DNA of 27,715 bases from the IMG/VR virus record IMGVR_UViG_3300030419_002963, positions 1 through 27,715 of that record. One strand, written 5' to 3'. This DNA is from a virus. Positions 17,114 to 22,318 of this stretch are shown piece by piece. Numbering within the stretch: position 1 is the first letter of the stretch; each line of letters opens with the position of its first letter. The position numbers and the translations under genes were made by a program. The notes below the pieces were generated by a model that saw only the letters and a list, made by a program, of their open reading frames with translations, had not been told where the DNA came from and ran no database searches.

Positions 17114-17573
17114 TTGTTCTCCACCAATAGGGTGTTTGTGTTTTCCAAGTAGCAAAACTGGATTTGTCGCCGTGGTAGTAGGCGCGGTAAGCTGTGACTG
17201 CATCGTCATTTTTATATTCCTGTGGCATAGCCTGGGCAAAGGGTGTAAGGTCGGTTTTCTCAAATCTCATATTTAATCGAGCACAGTGGTCAATAACATC
17301 TAATGACTTGTGCGTTTTTCCATAGCGCTTGGTGTATTCTTCGCACAGCGCATAACCATGCAAAAGAAGCCACGTCCAGTTATCATAAGCCTCTCCAGCC
17401 CAGATAGTACACGGGTGCCGTTTGTGAGTAGCACGATACGGAACCTCATGACCGTGTTCGGAGGCCACAGTACACAGCATTTGCGCTGTCTCTAAAATCA
17501 TTTTCACAACGTGCTTGTCACACATCATCTGTGCGGCGATTTCTGGATCTTCGTCCAAAATAAATATATTCAT
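17091..17573 (-). CDS. Conserved phage protein, possible DNA-repair relative, unknown function
   Basis: A 160-residue protein. Its start is MNIFILDEDPEIAAQMMCDKH followed by VVKMILETAQMLC, and it later has the HPCTIWAGE and RYGKTHKS stretches and DLTPFAQAMPQEYK. From memory, this pattern is a widely conserved family in large phages, sometimes annotated as a pyrimidine-dimer glycosylase-like protein. I cannot confirm that relation by eye, so no function is assigned. Several conserved His, Cys and Trp residues suggest an enzyme. The ATG overlaps the upstream stop (ATGA), and its end overlaps the exonuclease start by 23 bases. Confidence 0.75.
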   Translation of the reverse strand: MNIFILDEDPEIAAQMMCDKHVVKMILETAQMLCTVASEHGHEVPYRATHKRHPCTIWAGEAYDNWTWLLLHGYALCEEYTKRYGKTHKSLDVIDHCARLNMRFEKTDLTPFAQAMPQEYKNDDAVTAYRAYYHGDKSSFATWKTQTPYWWRTNETTTNC

Positions 17574-18016
17574 AGTTTATAGCTCCCTGCAATTTTATCG
17601 TTGATAGTAAATATAACACGTTTTACCCCCACATGTCGAAGGGCTGACTCGCACATTGGACAAGGTTTTGACATTTTGAATTCTCCGCGTTTTCCAATGC
17701 GAGCAACATAAACATCAGCGCCTTCAGTCTTTCGGCGATCTACTCCTAAGATACACCCAAGCTCCGCATGAACTGTAGAATGTCCTGGCTGAATATCACA
17801 CTTGCGAAAGCGTCTGCCAAATGAACAAAAGTTATTCTTGTTTTCTGAAACATGCACCACTCGGGATCCTCTCGCGAGGACTGCTCCATGACGTGGGCCA
17901 TCGAACGTAGAGTGGTGAGCTACCCTGCGTGCTAGCTCCATATGTCTTTTGATGCGCCCCGTATATTTGTGATACTTTTCTGCACCACTAGAATGTTGAT
18001 ACTCCATGCCAAGCAT
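17570..18016 (-). CDS. Zinc-dependent cytidine/deoxycytidylate deaminase family protein
   Basis: A 148-residue deaminase. The zinc signature is complete: His83-Ala84-Glu85 (STVHAELG) and Pro-Cys119-Pro-Met-Cys122 (SKPCPMCESAL). A preceding segment, RHGAVLARGSRVVHVSENKN, is the usual strand pair of the cytidine deaminase superfamily. The likely reaction is dCMP to dUMP, feeding ThyX, by analogy with phage dCMP deaminases; a free-nucleoside or other target is possible. An ATG at 18014-18016 has GGGAGG nine bases upstream, whereas a TTG six bases farther out would have a spacing of only three. The ribosome site is buried in a palindrome (see 18024-18061). Confidence 0.85.
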   Translation of the reverse strand: MLGMEYQHSSGAEKYHKYTGRIKRHMELARRVAHHSTFDGPRHGAVLARGSRVVHVSENKNNFCSFGRRFRKCDIQPGHSTVHAELGCILGVDRRKTEGADVYVARIGKRGEFKMSKPCPMCESALRHVGVKRVIFTINDKIAGSYKL

Positions 18017-18023
18017 AAACAAG

Positions 18024-18061
18024 TGCCTCCCAGATTTATAGTATACTAAATGTGGGAGGCA
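18024..18061 (-). promoter_or_regulatory. Palindrome with embedded promoter that can hide a ribosome-binding site
   Basis: Minus strand TGCCTCCCA (18053-18061) pairs exactly with TGGGAGGCA (18024-18032). After one mismatch a further five pairs form (AUUUA with UAAAU), leaving an 8-base loop, so 14 of 15 positions pair. The right arm contains GGGAGG, the ribosome-binding site of the deaminase gene. The -10 box of a strong promoter lies in the loop, so RNA that starts there lacks the left arm and exposes the site. Read-through RNA from the genes upstream would form the hairpin. Confidence 0.75.
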
Positions 18062-18068
18062 TTGTCAA
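18040..18068 (-). promoter_or_regulatory. sigma70-type promoter of the deaminase-exonuclease unit
   Basis: Minus strand: TTGACA (18063-18068), 17 bases, TATACT (18040-18045). The A-tract form AAAAAAAGTACTTGACA lies at the end of the lipoprotein gene. The expected start point is about seven bases past the -10, inside the palindrome and before the right arm. Confidence 0.85.
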
Positions 18069-18077
18069 GTACTTTTT

Positions 18078-18362
18078 TTAACGTCTGCGGTGTCTTCGCG
18101 GGGGTGGATGATTTGGCCGACGATGGTGGGTATGATATCGCACATATCGATGTGGGTTACGGTTCAGCAAGTGAGGCTTCACATGGCGAACTGCCCAATG
18201 GCCGCGGACCCAGTGTCCATTACGCCAATGTCCGTTTACCCATACCCATGCTTTTACTTTAACTGGAGCATGTGCCTGCGGTGTTGGAGGTGGTGGGGGA
18301 TGTGCATGAACCGCACACCCACTCATTAGAACGCAAAAGATTGCGGTTGTCAGTAGTTTCAT
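18078..18362 (-). CDS. His/Trp/Pro-rich lipoprotein with GHW repeats
   Basis: A 94-residue protein. The true start is the ATG at 18360-18362, preceded by AAGGAAAA and lying eleven bases after the end of RecA; upstream frame extensions would run into RecA. Residues 1-16 are a lipoprotein signal peptide with lipobox MSGC (Cys16). The mature part is PPPPPTPQAHAP, then a repeated N/R-G-H-W pattern (WVNGHWRNGHWVRGHW), then an Arg/His-rich end. Bacterial WxxGHW-repeat proteins are known as surface or periplasmic proteins. It may sit in the host outer membrane and block further infection, or be an outer-membrane spanin-like subunit as in Pro-rich Rz1. Both are guesses. Confidence 0.65.
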   Translation of the reverse strand: MKLLTTAIFCVLMSGCAVHAHPPPPPTPQAHAPVKVKAWVWVNGHWRNGHWVRGHWAVRHVKPHLLNRNPHRYVRYHTHHRRPNHPPPRRHRRR

Positions 18363-18372
18363 TTTATTTTCC

Positions 18373-19521
18373 TTAGTCTTTGATTGGAACAGTGAGGTCT
18401 TCAGGGTCGGCATAAAATGCATCTGCCGTTCCTTCTCTTCGATCAAACTTCTGTACGATCTCCTCATCCATTAGACGTATGACATGTTGCTTAAATTCAT
18501 CATCAGACGTAATTAATTCATTCCACTTTGAAGGTTGAAACTTTTTGGTATATCCATCTTGGGTAGAAAGAGTATACCAGGCTCCTGCGCTAGTTAGTGC
18601 GGCAGATCCCTTAATAGCATCAAACCATGATTCTTCGTCTCGGATTCCAATCTGATCGGTTCCCCACATAATGCGGAAGGCGCATGAGCGCCCTTGGGTT
18701 CCAAAACGAGACTTCTCAAGCCTCACTTTGACTTCAGAGCCAATACGAAATCCTTTCTCATCCTCAATAAAAGCCGCTTTAGCTTTCCGGCCCGTAAGCC
18801 AAATGCGCAAAGAATACGCATAATGCATAGCTTTACCACCAGGCGTGATGTACGGTGTAGTCATGGCCACAATGCGCGCATTCGGACCTTGGGGAATATT
18901 GGTCTTCAACTGATTAAGAACCAAGAAGGTCGCTCTTTTATCGGCAATAGGGATCACCAACTTGGACATACCTTTGGCCAGAATACGAGCCTTCATAGCC
19001 ATCGATGACTGTGGGTTGAAGTCGCCTTCAACATCAGATACAGATGGCGTGAACGCTAGCGAATCCCAGATGAAAAGCATCTGCTCATCGGTTGCGCCAA
19101 GGATTTCTTCGATAGTCTCTAAAACAAACTCTACCGAGGAAGCCTGAACATACATAAGTCGCTCAAGATCGCAGCCGGCGCGCTCCAAGAAAGATGGATC
19201 AATGGCTGACTCTGAATCAAAGTAAACCACCATCATGCCCATCTTTTGAGCGTTTGCTGCCACCTGTACTGCCATGTACGATTTACCAGTAGCTTCTAGG
19301 CCAGCGATTTCAGTAACCTTTCCAACAGGAATACCTGACACCTGGCCTTTGCTAATAATACTGTCAAGCCAGCGAGAGCCCGTAGGGATCCATTCTTTAA
19401 CTTCCGTGGGATTATCGCCGGTCAAATCATGAGCGACTGTAACCCCTGCTTTTTTATTAACAAGACTCATCAAATCTTGCATAGAAACCTTTCCAGGTTT
19501 AGTTTTGGCTTTTCTTGCCAT
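18373..19521 (-). CDS. recA: RecA/UvsX recombinase
   Basis: A 382-residue strand-exchange ATPase. Walker A is at residues about 74-82 (GLEATGKSY). The catalytic Glu lies near DSESAIDP, Walker B is MLFIWDSLAF, and loop 1 and loop 2 regions are present around DVEGDFNPQSSMAMKAR and QLKTNIPQG. It promotes homologous recombination and recombination-dependent replication. The N-terminus is basic (MARKAKTKPGKV) and the C-terminus acidic, as in the family. It resembles RecA in length but keeps the phage-type spacing. The ATG at 19519-19521 has AGGAGG six bases upstream. It lies just downstream of one copy of the 38-base stem-loop. Confidence 0.93.
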   Translation of the reverse strand: MARKAKTKPGKVSMQDLMSLVNKKAGVTVAHDLTGDNPTEVKEWIPTGSRWLDSIISKGQVSGIPVGKVTEIAGLEATGKSYMAVQVAANAQKMGMMVVYFDSESAIDPSFLERAGCDLERLMYVQASSVEFVLETIEEILGATDEQMLFIWDSLAFTPSVSDVEGDFNPQSSMAMKARILAKGMSKLVIPIADKRATFLVLNQLKTNIPQGPNARIVAMTTPYITPGGKAMHYAYSLRIWLTGRKAKAAFIEDEKGFRIGSEVKVRLEKSRFGTQGRSCAFRIMWGTDQIGIRDEESWFDAIKGSAALTSAGAWYTLSTQDGYTKKFQPSKWNELITSDDEFKQHVIRLMDEEIVQKFDRREGTADAFYADPEDLTVPIKD

Positions 19522-19536
19522 TGTGCCTCCTATGTA

Positions 19537-19574
19537 AAAATGTGGCAGACTATTTTAACCCGGTCTGCCATCGG
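19537..19574 (-). repeat. 38-base stem-loop, copy 1 of 2
   Basis: Identical over 38 bases to the copy at 20578-20615, including its loop. Arms TGGCAGAC and GTCTGCCA pair perfectly over eight bases with a 12-base loop, and CATTTTTAC follows on the minus strand. It starts 14 bases after the stop of the ParB-fold gene and ends just before the RecA ribosome site. It could be a terminator, an RNA-processing site or a protein-binding site. Confidence 0.9.
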
Positions 19575-19583
19575 CTTTGTGTA

Positions 19584-20501
19584 TCAATCAATGAGATTAT
19601 TAATCAACTGAAGCTTCAGTTGCTTCTGCTTGTATTTTGCAGTTACTCCATTGATAAGTTGAGCACGACGATAATCAGAGATTAAACCACGAGCAATGCT
19701 TTCGGCATGCCTGTGGTGGACTCTCCCGCCACGGGACTTGTAGTCTGAAGCAACACTGTGTTGCGAATACATGCTTAAAAGATTCGCAAACCAGTTCTCA
19801 AAGTCTTTTGAGATTTTAGACTTTTGTTGGTCGCCCAAAATTGGATAAAGACTATACAACAGTGCAACTGCTTCCATCAATTCTCCTTGAAGTTTCGTGT
19901 CGTTAGGCCACGTCTTTTTCAGAATATCAATGGACATTTTTGCTTCATTGTTGCCGCGTTTTAATGCGCGTCGAAACGCACCAACGCTTACATGGGGGCC
20001 ATTGACAAAACCCACAATACCACCTTTATCTGATGAACCGTAAACACTGACACCGCAGCGAATTAGCTCCAGATTTAACTGGGTAGCCGCCTCAATCTTG
20101 GCCTTAACTTGATGAACAAACACCTCTTCTTTAGTGGCATTTTTGCGCTTCTCCCAGTTGACTTCATAGAAAAGTCTATGATAATCTTTCATGTTTTCAA
20201 CTTCAATCAGATATGCTGGAATAGTTTCCGCATCTGGAAAAGTTAAGCGGTACATGTGGCGTCGATGATCACCGTCTAAAAGCAGTTTTTCTTTGTTTGG
20301 AAAGACCGCGACAATAATCGGACTATACAGAGTCCACTTCCAGCCATCTTTGAGATTTTTTTTAACTCGGCGGCTGTCAGTGTCACGATTGATATCGCCC
20401 TGAATGTTCACTGAAACATCGGCATGTGTTCCTGGTCGACCATGCACGACGATATCATCTGTTTGTGGTAATTTGGCATTACCTGTTATTGTAGTTGACA
20501 T
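19584..20501 (-). CDS. ParB-fold (ParB/Srx-like) protein of unknown role
   Basis: A 305-residue protein. Residues 58-105 (YSPIIVAVF...LLLDGDHRRHMYRL...IPAYLIEVEN) match the N-terminal ParB/sulfiredoxin fold, whose signature is the DGDHRRH motif at 76-82. This motif binds nucleotides in ParB-type CTPases and in related phage nuclease and decoy proteins. A helical part follows with an HTH-like stretch around VSVGAFRRALKRGNNEAK. The C-terminus is basic (KYKQKQLKLQ). It could act in DNA partition, transcription control or nucleotide sensing. It lies between the SSB and RecA genes and is flanked by two identical palindromes. The ATG at 20499-20501 follows GGAG. Confidence 0.65.
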   Translation of the reverse strand: MSTTITGNAKLPQTDDIVVHGRPGTHADVSVNIQGDINRDTDSRRVKKNLKDGWKWTLYSPIIVAVFPNKEKLLLDGDHRRHMYRLTFPDAETIPAYLIEVENMKDYHRLFYEVNWEKRKNATKEEVFVHQVKAKIEAATQLNLELIRCGVSVYGSSDKGGIVGFVNGPHVSVGAFRRALKRGNNEAKMSIDILKKTWPNDTKLQGELMEAVALLYSLYPILGDQQKSKISKDFENWFANLLSMYSQHSVASDYKSRGGRVHHRHAESIARGLISDYRRAQLINGVTAKYKQKQLKLQLINNLID

Positions 20502-20577
20502 AATTTCTCCTTTTTATTATATCAGATGTAGTTTTGCAGCCATCGGACTTATGCGAGGTACTACTAACCTAAAATTT

Positions 20578-20615
20578 AAAATGTGGCAGACTATTTTAAC
20601 CCGGTCTGCCATCGG
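20578..20615 (-). repeat. 38-base stem-loop, copy 2 of 2
   Basis: Exact copy of the element at 19537-19574. Arms at 20584-20591 and 20604-20611. It begins 26 bases after the stop of the SSB gene and lies 77 bases upstream of the ParB-fold gene start. On the minus strand it is followed by CATTTTAAATTTTAGG, a moderately U-rich tail. Confidence 0.9.
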
Positions 20616-20636
20616 TGGTCCACGAGCCTAGTTACT

Positions 20637-21404
20637 CTAGGACATCAGTTCCTCGAACGCCTTATCTACATCGTTCGTCGTCTGGGCGGAGTACTTTGTA
20701 GTCTCTTTCGAGCGACTCTCGGCAGAACCATCACCGGAGAGTTGTTCGTCCAGAATAGCACCGACTTGATCGCTGGTCAAGCGTTCGAACAAAGTGTCGA
20801 ACTCAGGTACGCGGTCTAGGAGGGCAGGGATAGATTCCGCGTCGGCGAGCAGGGGGGATGTGTTGCGGCGCATCTTTAGGCTCGTTTGGGGGTATGCACC
20901 AGGCTTATTGGGCTTGGTGTAAGTTAGAGTGATATCGGTGCCCTCATGAGCATCGGTAATATCACCGTATTCTGGGTCAAGGATGTAGCCCAAAAGAAGT
21001 TCATACGCCTTCTTTCCATATCCATAGACCTTGACACCTTCGTCTTCACGGCCGCGAATAACCACAGGTGAGAAATAACGTTGGCGTACAAAAAGTGACT
21101 TAGCAAGCGTTTTGCTTTCCTCGTCGTTGTTGGTGGTGCCTTCGCGCCATAACGCAGAAGCAAACTCGCAGATTGGACATGCTTCGCCGAAGTTTCGCTT
21201 CGGACAAAGAACGCCACCGCGATGCTCGCCCACATTATAGTGGAAGTGCATCTCCTTAAGGGGGTCCCCGTCATTAGTTGGGATAATACGAATGTCCGTA
21301 TCACCCTCGTCCGGCTTAAACCAGACAGAAGGAGTGTTATCTCCGTTTCCTTCTCCTCGAAGGGATGCAAGTTTTCGTCGCATCAGTTCCATATCAATTG
21401 CCAT
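20637..21404 (-). CDS. Single-stranded DNA-binding protein, T4 gp32-like
   Basis: A 255-residue SSB. The zinc-binding core has Cys67 in LCPKR and Cys76-Pro-Ile-Cys79 (EACPICEF), with a His in the preceding stretch (HFHYNVGEHRGG): the His-Cys3 layout of phage T4 gp32. The N-terminal helix (ELMRRKLASLRGEG) resembles the cooperativity domain. The C-terminus ends in acidic and hydrophobic residues (DVDKAFEELMS), as in SSBs that recruit partner proteins. It coats single-stranded DNA during replication and RecA-driven recombination. The ATG at 21402-21404 has AAGGAGA ahead of it and follows two candidate promoters. Confidence 0.88.
   Translation of the reverse strand: MAIDMELMRRKLASLRGEGNGDNTPSVWFKPDEGDTDIRIIPTNDGDPLKEMHFHYNVGEHRGGVLCPKRNFGEACPICEFASALWREGTTNNDEESKTLAKSLFVRQRYFSPVVIRGREDEGVKVYGYGKKAYELLLGYILDPEYGDITDAHEGTDITLTYTKPNKPGAYPQTSLKMRRNTSPLLADAESIPALLDRVPEFDTLFERLTSDQVGAILDEQLSGDGSAESRSKETTKYSAQTTNDVDKAFEELMS
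20752..20780 (-). promoter_or_regulatory. Possible intragenic promoter in the SSB gene
   Basis: Minus strand: TTGACC (20775-20780), 17 bases, TATTCT (20752-20757) with TGC before the -10. It is the weakest of the set, about 250 bases before the ParB-fold start. Listed because its spacing and position repeat the pattern of the stronger intragenic promoters. Confidence 0.35.
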
Positions 21405-21429
21405 GTTTTTTTGTCTCCTTGTTGACTAT

Positions 21430-21438
21430 AGTATACCA
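21430..21438 (-). promoter_or_regulatory. Extended -10 promoter, second in tandem, before SSB
   Basis: Minus strand TGGTATACT: TATACT (21430-21435) preceded by TG one base away, the extended -10 pattern. No good -35 lies 17 bases upstream. A start point here would give a leader of about 20 bases containing the ribosome-binding site of the SSB gene. Confidence 0.45.
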
Positions 21439-21456
21439 AGCGTTCCTTGATATCTT

Positions 21457-21485
21457 ATTGTGGCACACTCGACGTAGCTTGTCAA
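21457..21485 (-). promoter_or_regulatory. sigma70-type promoter before SSB
   Basis: Minus strand: TTGACA (21480-21485), 17 bases, CACAAT (21457-21462; four of six matches). The -35 lies in a short palindrome, GCTTGACAAGC, and ACAAAAATACGCTTGACA carries an A-tract upstream. It sits at the end of the FtsZ-like gene. Confidence 0.7.
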
Positions 21486-22318
21486 GCGTATTTTTGTACT
21501 ACGTTAGTAAGGGCAACGCAGAACCCAAAATCATCAAATTCAGTTTCATAGATCGCGTACGAGATCTTGCGAAACGCATTTCTTGGTTTTTGCTTGAGTA
21601 AATCAACCAACTTTTTATGAAGCGCCCCATCGTTCTCCAGCTTATCCTTGTTTATACACATATAATAGCATATGTCTCGGTCCATGTCAAGAGGAAAAAG
21701 CCATTTTTCTTCAAGATTCTTCATATTGAGTAAACCGATGGTTCTAATTCGACAAATGTCAAGCGGCCGGGCGACCATCCCGATCTCTGGCTCATTATGT
21801 TCGAAGAAATTTAAGTAATGAACAGTTGAGAAAATAGTGCGATTGAGCGTGGCGTAGTATTTCTTGATGGGAACGTTTCCAAGATGGTTTTCAAGTAATT
21901 CGTTACTAATCAACGTTGCCGACTTTAAGAGGCCGGAACGAGCATACTCCTGTATGACGCTGAATACCACTTTATCTACCAATTTAGGGACGCCTGTGAG
22001 AAGTTCACCGTCTGGTTTGATATAAAACAACTCCACATCTGCATGCTTAAGCTGTTCGAGTATACCAAGTGTATAGTTAGAACTCATCGAAGAGCCTACA
22101 ACAAAGAACTGTACTCGGCCCTTAATATCACTAAAGAACTTTTTGAGATTCGGTATGTTTTGCTCATATTCTTCTGCTTCTTCATAATGCTTTAATCTAA
22201 ATTTATACTTAGAGGAGCGTTCTACAGAACTATTAAGCTGATAGACTTTATAATTGTCGACTGCTTTGAAGTTCTCTACTATTTTAGAAGCGGCATTGCC
22301 CAAGCCAACTACGATCAT
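21482..22318 (-). CDS. Putative tubulin/FtsZ-like GTPase-fold protein
   Basis: A 278-residue protein. The start MIVVGLGNAASKIVENF resembles the first strand and Gly-rich loop of FtsZ/tubulin (GxGGxGxNxV). A second loop, FFVVGSSMSSNYTLGILEQL (about 71-90), sits where tubulins carry GGGTGTG and is followed by a helix, but its glycines are mostly lost, so GTP binding is doubtful. Later segments (LFYIKPDGELL, VFSVIQEYARSGL, TVHYLNFFEHNEP) would form the rest of the Rossmann half. From memory, relatives with this N-terminus occur in marine phages, unnamed. It is shorter than FtsZ (about 380). A partition or virion role is possible. The ATG overlaps the polymerase-like stop. Confidence 0.45.
   Translation of the reverse strand: MIVVGLGNAASKIVENFKAVDNYKVYQLNSSVERSSKYKFRLKHYEEAEEYEQNIPNLKKFFSDIKGRVQFFVVGSSMSSNYTLGILEQLKHADVELFYIKPDGELLTGVPKLVDKVVFSVIQEYARSGLLKSATLISNELLENHLGNVPIKKYYATLNRTIFSTVHYLNFFEHNEPEIGMVARPLDICRIRTIGLLNMKNLEEKWLFPLDMDRDICYYMCINKDKLENDGALHKKLVDLLKQKPRNAFRKISYAIYETEFDDFGFCVALTNVVQKYA
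21662..21690 (-). promoter_or_regulatory. Intragenic promoter in the FtsZ-like gene
   Basis: Minus strand: TTGACA (21685-21690), 17 bases, TATTAT (21662-21667) with TGC before the -10, five of six -10 matches. It lies about 260 bases before the SSB start codon. Confidence 0.6.

Follow-up and report, generated by a model that had tools for sequence, protein, structure and literature searches.

In IS10, IS50 and similar elements, transcripts that read through from outside fold in such a way that the ribosome site of the transposase gene is masked, whereas RNA from the internal promoter does not. For gene e of phage T4, two reviews describe long transcripts that fold, with translation reduced approximately 100-fold, and late-promoter RNA that lacks the 5' strand of the hairpin (PMC3014915, PMC2988022). 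According to the same reviews, a late promoter lies within or at a ribosome-site-masking hairpin in T4 genes e, soc, 49, I-TevI, I-TevII, I-TevIII and segB and in mobE of phage Aeh1 (PMC3014915, PMC2988022). In addition, promoter-early stem-loop (PeSL) cassettes are known from T4-like phages (Arbiol 2010; Comeau 2014, as described in PMC4503421).

Promoter and hairpin downstream of recA

The locus considered here lies in a viral DNA stretch of 27,715 nt (positions 1 to 27,715 of the IMG/VR record IMGVR_UViG_3300030419_002963), hereafter the window. On its minus strand, a recA/uvsX-like gene is followed by a small putative lipoprotein gene, the element under study and a dCMP/cytidine deaminase gene. 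Promoter, hairpin and ribosome site are compressed into about 50–55 bases after recA. The features, in the direction of transcription, are as follows.

18373–19521, minus strand: recA/uvsX-like gene (PF00154, E = 5e-33), whose transcript would enter the element
18078–18362, minus strand: small proline/histidine-rich putative lipoprotein gene in the recA-to-element interval (open reading frame; signal/lipobox-like start by eye)
18063–18068, minus strand: −35 hexamer TTGACA (TTGACA, TTGACT or TTGACC in relatives)
18062–18046, minus strand: 17-nt spacer containing the left arm
18053–18061, minus strand: left arm TGCCTCCCA, the anti-ribosome-site strand, within the −35/−10 spacer (covaries with the right arm in relatives)
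18052/18033, minus strand: C·C mismatch in the stem
18051–18047 with 18038–18034, minus strand: inner pairs, ATTTA with TAAAT
18046–18039, minus strand: loop of 8 nt
18040–18045, minus strand: −10 hexamer TATACT, in the hairpin loop
18032–18034, minus strand: expected transcription start at the 5' edge of the right arm (promoter geometry, 6–8 nt after the −10)
18024–18032, minus strand: right arm TGGGAGGCA, holding the ribosome site GGGAGG (18031–18026)
18017–18023, minus strand: T-rich stretch CTTGTTT after the stem (weak terminator tail in the window; T5–T7 in many relatives, with T7 in L057)
17570–18016, minus strand: dCMP/cytidine deaminase gene (PF00383, E = 1e-10; the reading frame is also open from TTG 18022)

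The element thus reads TTGACA - ATGCCTCCCACATTTAG - TATACT - ATAAATC - TGGGAGGCA - CTTGTTT - ATG, and the coordinates and description given in the initial annotation for the arms, GGGAGG, TATACT, TTGACA and the 17-base spacing are exact. The embedded promoter is of near-consensus sigma-70 type (11/12), and promoters similar to it precede other minus-strand genes in the window. Since transcription is expected to start at about 18034–18032, RNA from this promoter would lack the whole left arm. The deaminase more likely starts at ATG 18016, 9 nt after GGAGG, than at TTG 18022, because the relatives L008 and L009 have TTT at the position of the TTG. No Pfam match was found for the putative lipoprotein (18078–18362); many relatives carry a comparable small gene of secreted or lipoprotein type after recA, and others lack it. 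Comparison of positions 17500–21700 with the Rfam 15 covariance models gave no match with E up to 1.

Conservation and covariation in related marine phages

A search of IMG/VR with the deaminase protein yielded 25 loci, and the layout is kept in all 18 loci with at least 73% protein identity. In three of the loci (L020, L022 and L023) a T-A pair at the stem base is exchanged for A-T, and in L021 the stem is thoroughly altered yet paired (AAGCTCTCCGC with GCGGAGGGCTT, one G·U). The layout is absent from the loci of the distant deaminases (L024–L030, about 48% identity), in several of which the deaminase gene overlaps the end of recA.

Most of the 80 loci obtained by a recA protein search contain, 8–40 nt past the recA stop codon or after a lipoprotein-type gene that follows recA, a TTGACT/TTGACA - 17 - TATAAT promoter whose −10 is spanned by a hairpin. 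The comparative set consisted of 58 distinct elements of related marine phages, with 25 representatives less than 80% identical to one another. The −35 is TTGACA, TTGACT or TTGACC in 58/58 elements, the spacer is 17 nt long in 55/58, and the hairpin spans the −10 in 53/58. The remaining five (L062, L068, L077, L081 and L103) retain the promoter alone, so the hairpin is dispensable in some lineages. Genes behind the element vary and include those for the deaminase, a 5'-3' exonuclease, a UvdE UV endonuclease, a pyrimidine-dimer glycosylase and small unknown proteins. Because the downstream gene differs among relatives, the element goes with the post-recA position and not with the deaminase.

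In the post-recA loci L031–L109 the downstream genes are mostly those of DNA repair and nucleotide metabolism, and the locus resembles a small hot spot of gene exchange. In L103 and L104 the post-recA promoter is kept and the ATG of the exonuclease gene lies a few bases past the −10 (TTATAAATTATGACA), which suggests a leaderless message. Among cultured organisms, all recA matches were less than 60% identical, and the one DNA match, in Pelagibacter phage Mosig, falls under hypothetical proteins.

Alignment of whole elements with MAFFT gave no consensus structure, because the arms differ in their offset from the −35; a swap test and a stem-only alignment were used in its place. In the swap test with the 25 representatives, duplexes of cognate spacers and leaders had a mean energy of −17.6 kcal/mol, versus −11.75 ± 0.62 kcal/mol when the leaders were permuted, and the observed value was reached by 0 of 20,000 permutations. 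In 23 distinct stems, two-sided changes were found at all nine pairs, and 98.6% of the cells were paired versus 72% in shuffles; these counts lean towards pairing, as the arms were chosen as the best helix, a bias from which the swap test is free. Compensatory base changes in the arms, to which the initial annotation had directed attention, are thus present among the relatives.

On the transcript strand, the departures from Watson–Crick pairing in the 25 representatives comprise 25 G·U and 1 A·C, an excess to which a fixed ribosome site and a fixed −10, with drift confined to their partners, could contribute. In roughly half of the wobble pairs, however, the G is in the left arm and the U in the right, an arrangement not forced by the ribosome site. 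This strand asymmetry indicates an RNA stem and not a DNA operator, since a DNA-binding site would treat both strands alike.

Other features were noted upstream of recA. An exact 38-nt direct repeat in the window (19537–19574 and 20578–20615) contains a hairpin (TGGCAGAC/GTCTGCCA) with T-rich sequence after it. It was considered as a second promoter hairpin and rejected after comparison with relatives, being a terminator-like hairpin without a proper −35; many relatives have a hairpin of this type ahead of recA. A gene for a 305-aa protein, for which no Pfam match was found, is flanked by two copies in the window, L031 and L040, and in L032, L033, L006 and L009 a single copy stands alone between recA and the gene upstream of it. 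The difference is apparently a 1041-bp cassette of gene plus terminator, gained or lost at the repeat. A recurrent promoter leader was also observed upstream of recA (L011:586, L053:1095, L082:364 and others), with the arrangement TTGACA..GCTACGTCGAGTGT..TA-AT..ATCAAGGAACGCTTGATAT and a palindrome downstream of the −10. This leader apparently precedes a gp32-like gene and possibly serves gp32 autoregulation.

Occurrence of the layout elsewhere

Consensus promoters in four longer records (146, 78, 73 and 59 kb) were scanned for hairpins across the −10. A strong promoter hairpin bearing a ribosome site was found once each in G001, G005 and G006, at the post-recA place; the G006 record begins just before the element. 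The post-recA element of G003 (L071/L072) has a weaker hairpin, below the strict cut, and no strong hairpin with a ribosome site was detected at the other consensus promoters of the four records.

Viral contigs were additionally searched with the pattern TTGAC..CCTCC..GGAGG-N-TTT, and the presence of a −10 at 16–18 nt served as the test. Among the viral matches listed, a −10 is correctly placed at 32 of 89 distinct sites. In the matches listed for control arms CCACC/GGTGG it was present in 3 of 95 (Fisher 7e-9), and in those for a control without complementary arms in 4 of 94 (Fisher 4e-8). About 20 of the 32 listed layout sites have no recA match in the flanking DNA examined; these numbers count sites and not independent origins. 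The genes behind the sites without recA include those for a DnaE-like polymerase (by eye), a RecD2-like helicase, a deoxynucleotide kinase and a phosphoesterase. The element of L253 stands before a UvdE-like protein. In L153 and L156 it precedes proteins resembling the deaminase or the deaminase start, and judging by sequence these two may be kin of the post-recA family.

A near-identical element (ATGACAAAAAAGACCTCCTATGGTATAATAGAAACCATAGGAGGTTTTGTTATG) was also observed in many Clostridia/Ruminococcus contigs (L521, L527, L542, L547, L584, L597, L603, L607 and L613) before a gene for an HTH protein; Pfam matches at these loci were below the cut-off. The element there may be an insertion-sequence promoter shielded from read-through.

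Proposed action, alternatives and relation to known systems

Folding predictions for the window gave a probability of GGGAGG being unpaired of 0.000 in the read-through RNA versus 0.495 in the promoter-started RNA, and a predicted cost of opening the ribosome site of 18.8 versus 2.9 kcal/mol. The predicted difference in accessibility goes in the same direction for almost every representative with a hairpin; for elements without the hairpin no such difference is predicted. These predictions support the initial proposal that the hairpin forms only in read-through RNA, masking the ribosome site, and that RNA from the embedded promoter escapes it.

The hairpin has terminator character as well. Of 20 hairpin representatives, 13 have a run of at least four T past the right arm, and the mean number of T in the first eight positions is 5.95; these counts were restricted to representatives, and full-fold counts were set aside as confounded by pairing of the tail. 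The comparison spacers, which lie between ribosome site and start codon at those genes of the same loci that lack such a promoter, contain 51% A and 22% T, and TTTT occurs in 0 of 189. L069, L070, L098 and L105 keep the hairpin and T-tract with the ribosome site outside the hairpin. As the T-tract is usual and the ribosome site of this one clade lies outside, the family can be described as a composite of promoter, terminator and ribosome site, whose hairpin probably ends upstream transcription besides masking the start. The tail of the window is CTTGTTTA only (CTTGTTTATG), a poor terminator, and its sister L008/L009 has a T6 tail. Since the T-tract is weak in the window, masking is expected to dominate there and is probably the main action in this phage.

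From the layout, conservation, covariation, RNA-type pairing and T-richness, together with the predicted accessibility and start site, we infer termination and an insulating purpose. With considerable confidence, the element is regarded as a self-insulating promoter that ends the recA unit and leaves the next gene to be expressed from its own promoter only. Polymerase coming from recA and the lipoprotein gene would copy both arms, and the read-through RNA would fold into a G+C-rich hairpin burying the ribosome site of the next gene; with a good T-tract, this hairpin would probably be an intrinsic terminator too. The embedded sigma-70 promoter would start RNA just before the right arm, and because the left arm is absent this RNA would be unable to fold and would be translated. 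The next gene (the deaminase gene in the window) would thereby be shielded from transcription of the recA region. Transcription without translation from upstream, as the initial annotation had it, agrees with the masking and is incomplete, given that the T-tract of most relatives implies possible frequent termination.

Perfect nine-base arms with a gap of no more than 30 nt occur 2.7 times per shuffled window, i.e., two to three are expected by chance, and because such arms are common the palindrome alone is unremarkable. This frequency would favor a chance palindrome at a real promoter, but conservation, the swap test and shuffling contradict it. The observed fold energy was reached by 0 of 20,000 spacer shuffles with the leader unchanged and by 2 of 27,659 other 17-mers from the same strand of the window, and the fold of the element region has z = −4.4. 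The coincidence of the palindrome with the spacer and ribosome site is not due to chance; this explanation, refuted by the swap test, has a practically negligible probability. A palindrome overlapping a promoter is also the classic layout of an operator bound as DNA by a dimeric repressor or activator. However, the arm sequences diverge widely among relatives with pairing retained, and the wobble departures are strand-asymmetric. No second copy of the arms was found in the window. In view of the wobble asymmetry, with neither strand-symmetric departures nor a conserved site sequence, a dimeric operator was rejected as very improbable.

Two further explanations share parts of the proposed mechanism. 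The hairpin might be no more than an intrinsic terminator for the recA unit, overlapping the following promoter and holding the ribosome site in its stem for compactness only. This explanation fits the stems of most relatives, which a T-tract follows, and the clade whose ribosome site lies beyond the hairpin; it is nevertheless doubtful: the window clade, L021 and L051/L071 have a poor T-tract, yet keep the stem that masks the ribosome site, and arms lacking the ribosome site rarely carry a −10 among the viral matches listed (3/95 versus 32/89). A timing switch of the T4 gene e type, in which the hairpin only masks and the embedded promoter sets the phase of expression, is unlikely, although the geometry is the same as in T4 e, soc and I-TevI (PMC3014915, PMC2988022) and the weak tail of the window agrees with masking as the main action. 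Such a switch would leave unexplained the T-tracts and the clade that has its ribosome site outside, and, as the downstream gene differs among relatives, what is conserved is not a deaminase-specific schedule. The embedded promoter is moreover sigma-70-like and not of the phage late type, with similar promoters elsewhere in the window; the timing of the deaminase by promoter choice, as initially suggested, thus found no support. In case of a late shut-off of the phage's sigma-70 promoters, the sequence of events would be opposite to that in T4, with expression early and silence later.

Returning to the self-insulating promoter, the chances appear about even that the layout is a general regulatory part of phages that evolved repeatedly. 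In such a part, the −35/−10 spacer of a sigma-70 promoter would double as the anti-ribosome-site arm of a terminator hairpin, the ribosome site would be its other arm, and the T-tract would set the distance to the start codon. A stretch of about 55 bases would thereby insulate strictly against read-through, in many unrelated phages as well as in some bacterial mobile elements. Promoter, terminator and translation signals are merged here, and calling the parts separately would lead to wrong prediction of transcription units in such phages. The element is also small enough to serve as an insulated promoter part.

The T4 e/soc precedent cited in the initial annotation is real, and the parallel is right in mechanism (PMC3014915, PMC2988022). 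In both cases, the promoter lies within the region of the 5' strand or loop, so placed that the 5' hairpin strand is missing from its RNA, and the ribosome site is masked in longer transcripts only, which for the phage element is a prediction. No relationship of the element to T4 genes e or soc is known. The T4 late promoter is TATAAATA without a −35, whereas the element has TTGACA-17-TATACT, and unlike in T4 its left arm is the 17-nt −35/−10 spacer of a sigma-70-like promoter. Also unlike T4 e/soc, many of the phage elements have a terminator-like T-tract, and the post-recA position is conserved rather than the gene. Comparative evidence of the covariation, wobble or natural-loss kind was not found in the consulted passages of the two T4 reviews (PMC3014915, PMC2988022), and a search of the literature on promoters inside terminators gave nothing useful.

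With PeSL cassettes the element shares an early-type promoter combined with a stem-loop in an intergenic composite where the neighboring gene varies. Unlike PeSL, there is one promoter hairpin per record (G001, G005 and G006) and not a dense repeated set in variable regions; the ribosome site is in the stem, and the sequences differ between phages without obvious recombination homology. In contrast to IS10 and IS50, the window contains no transposase and the locus is one of phage core genes. The kind of mechanism is therefore known (T4 e, soc and I-TevI), and the sigma-70 variant is new to us: what is known mainly from the late genes of T4 and from transposases is here extended to sigma-70 promoters in uncultured marine phages.
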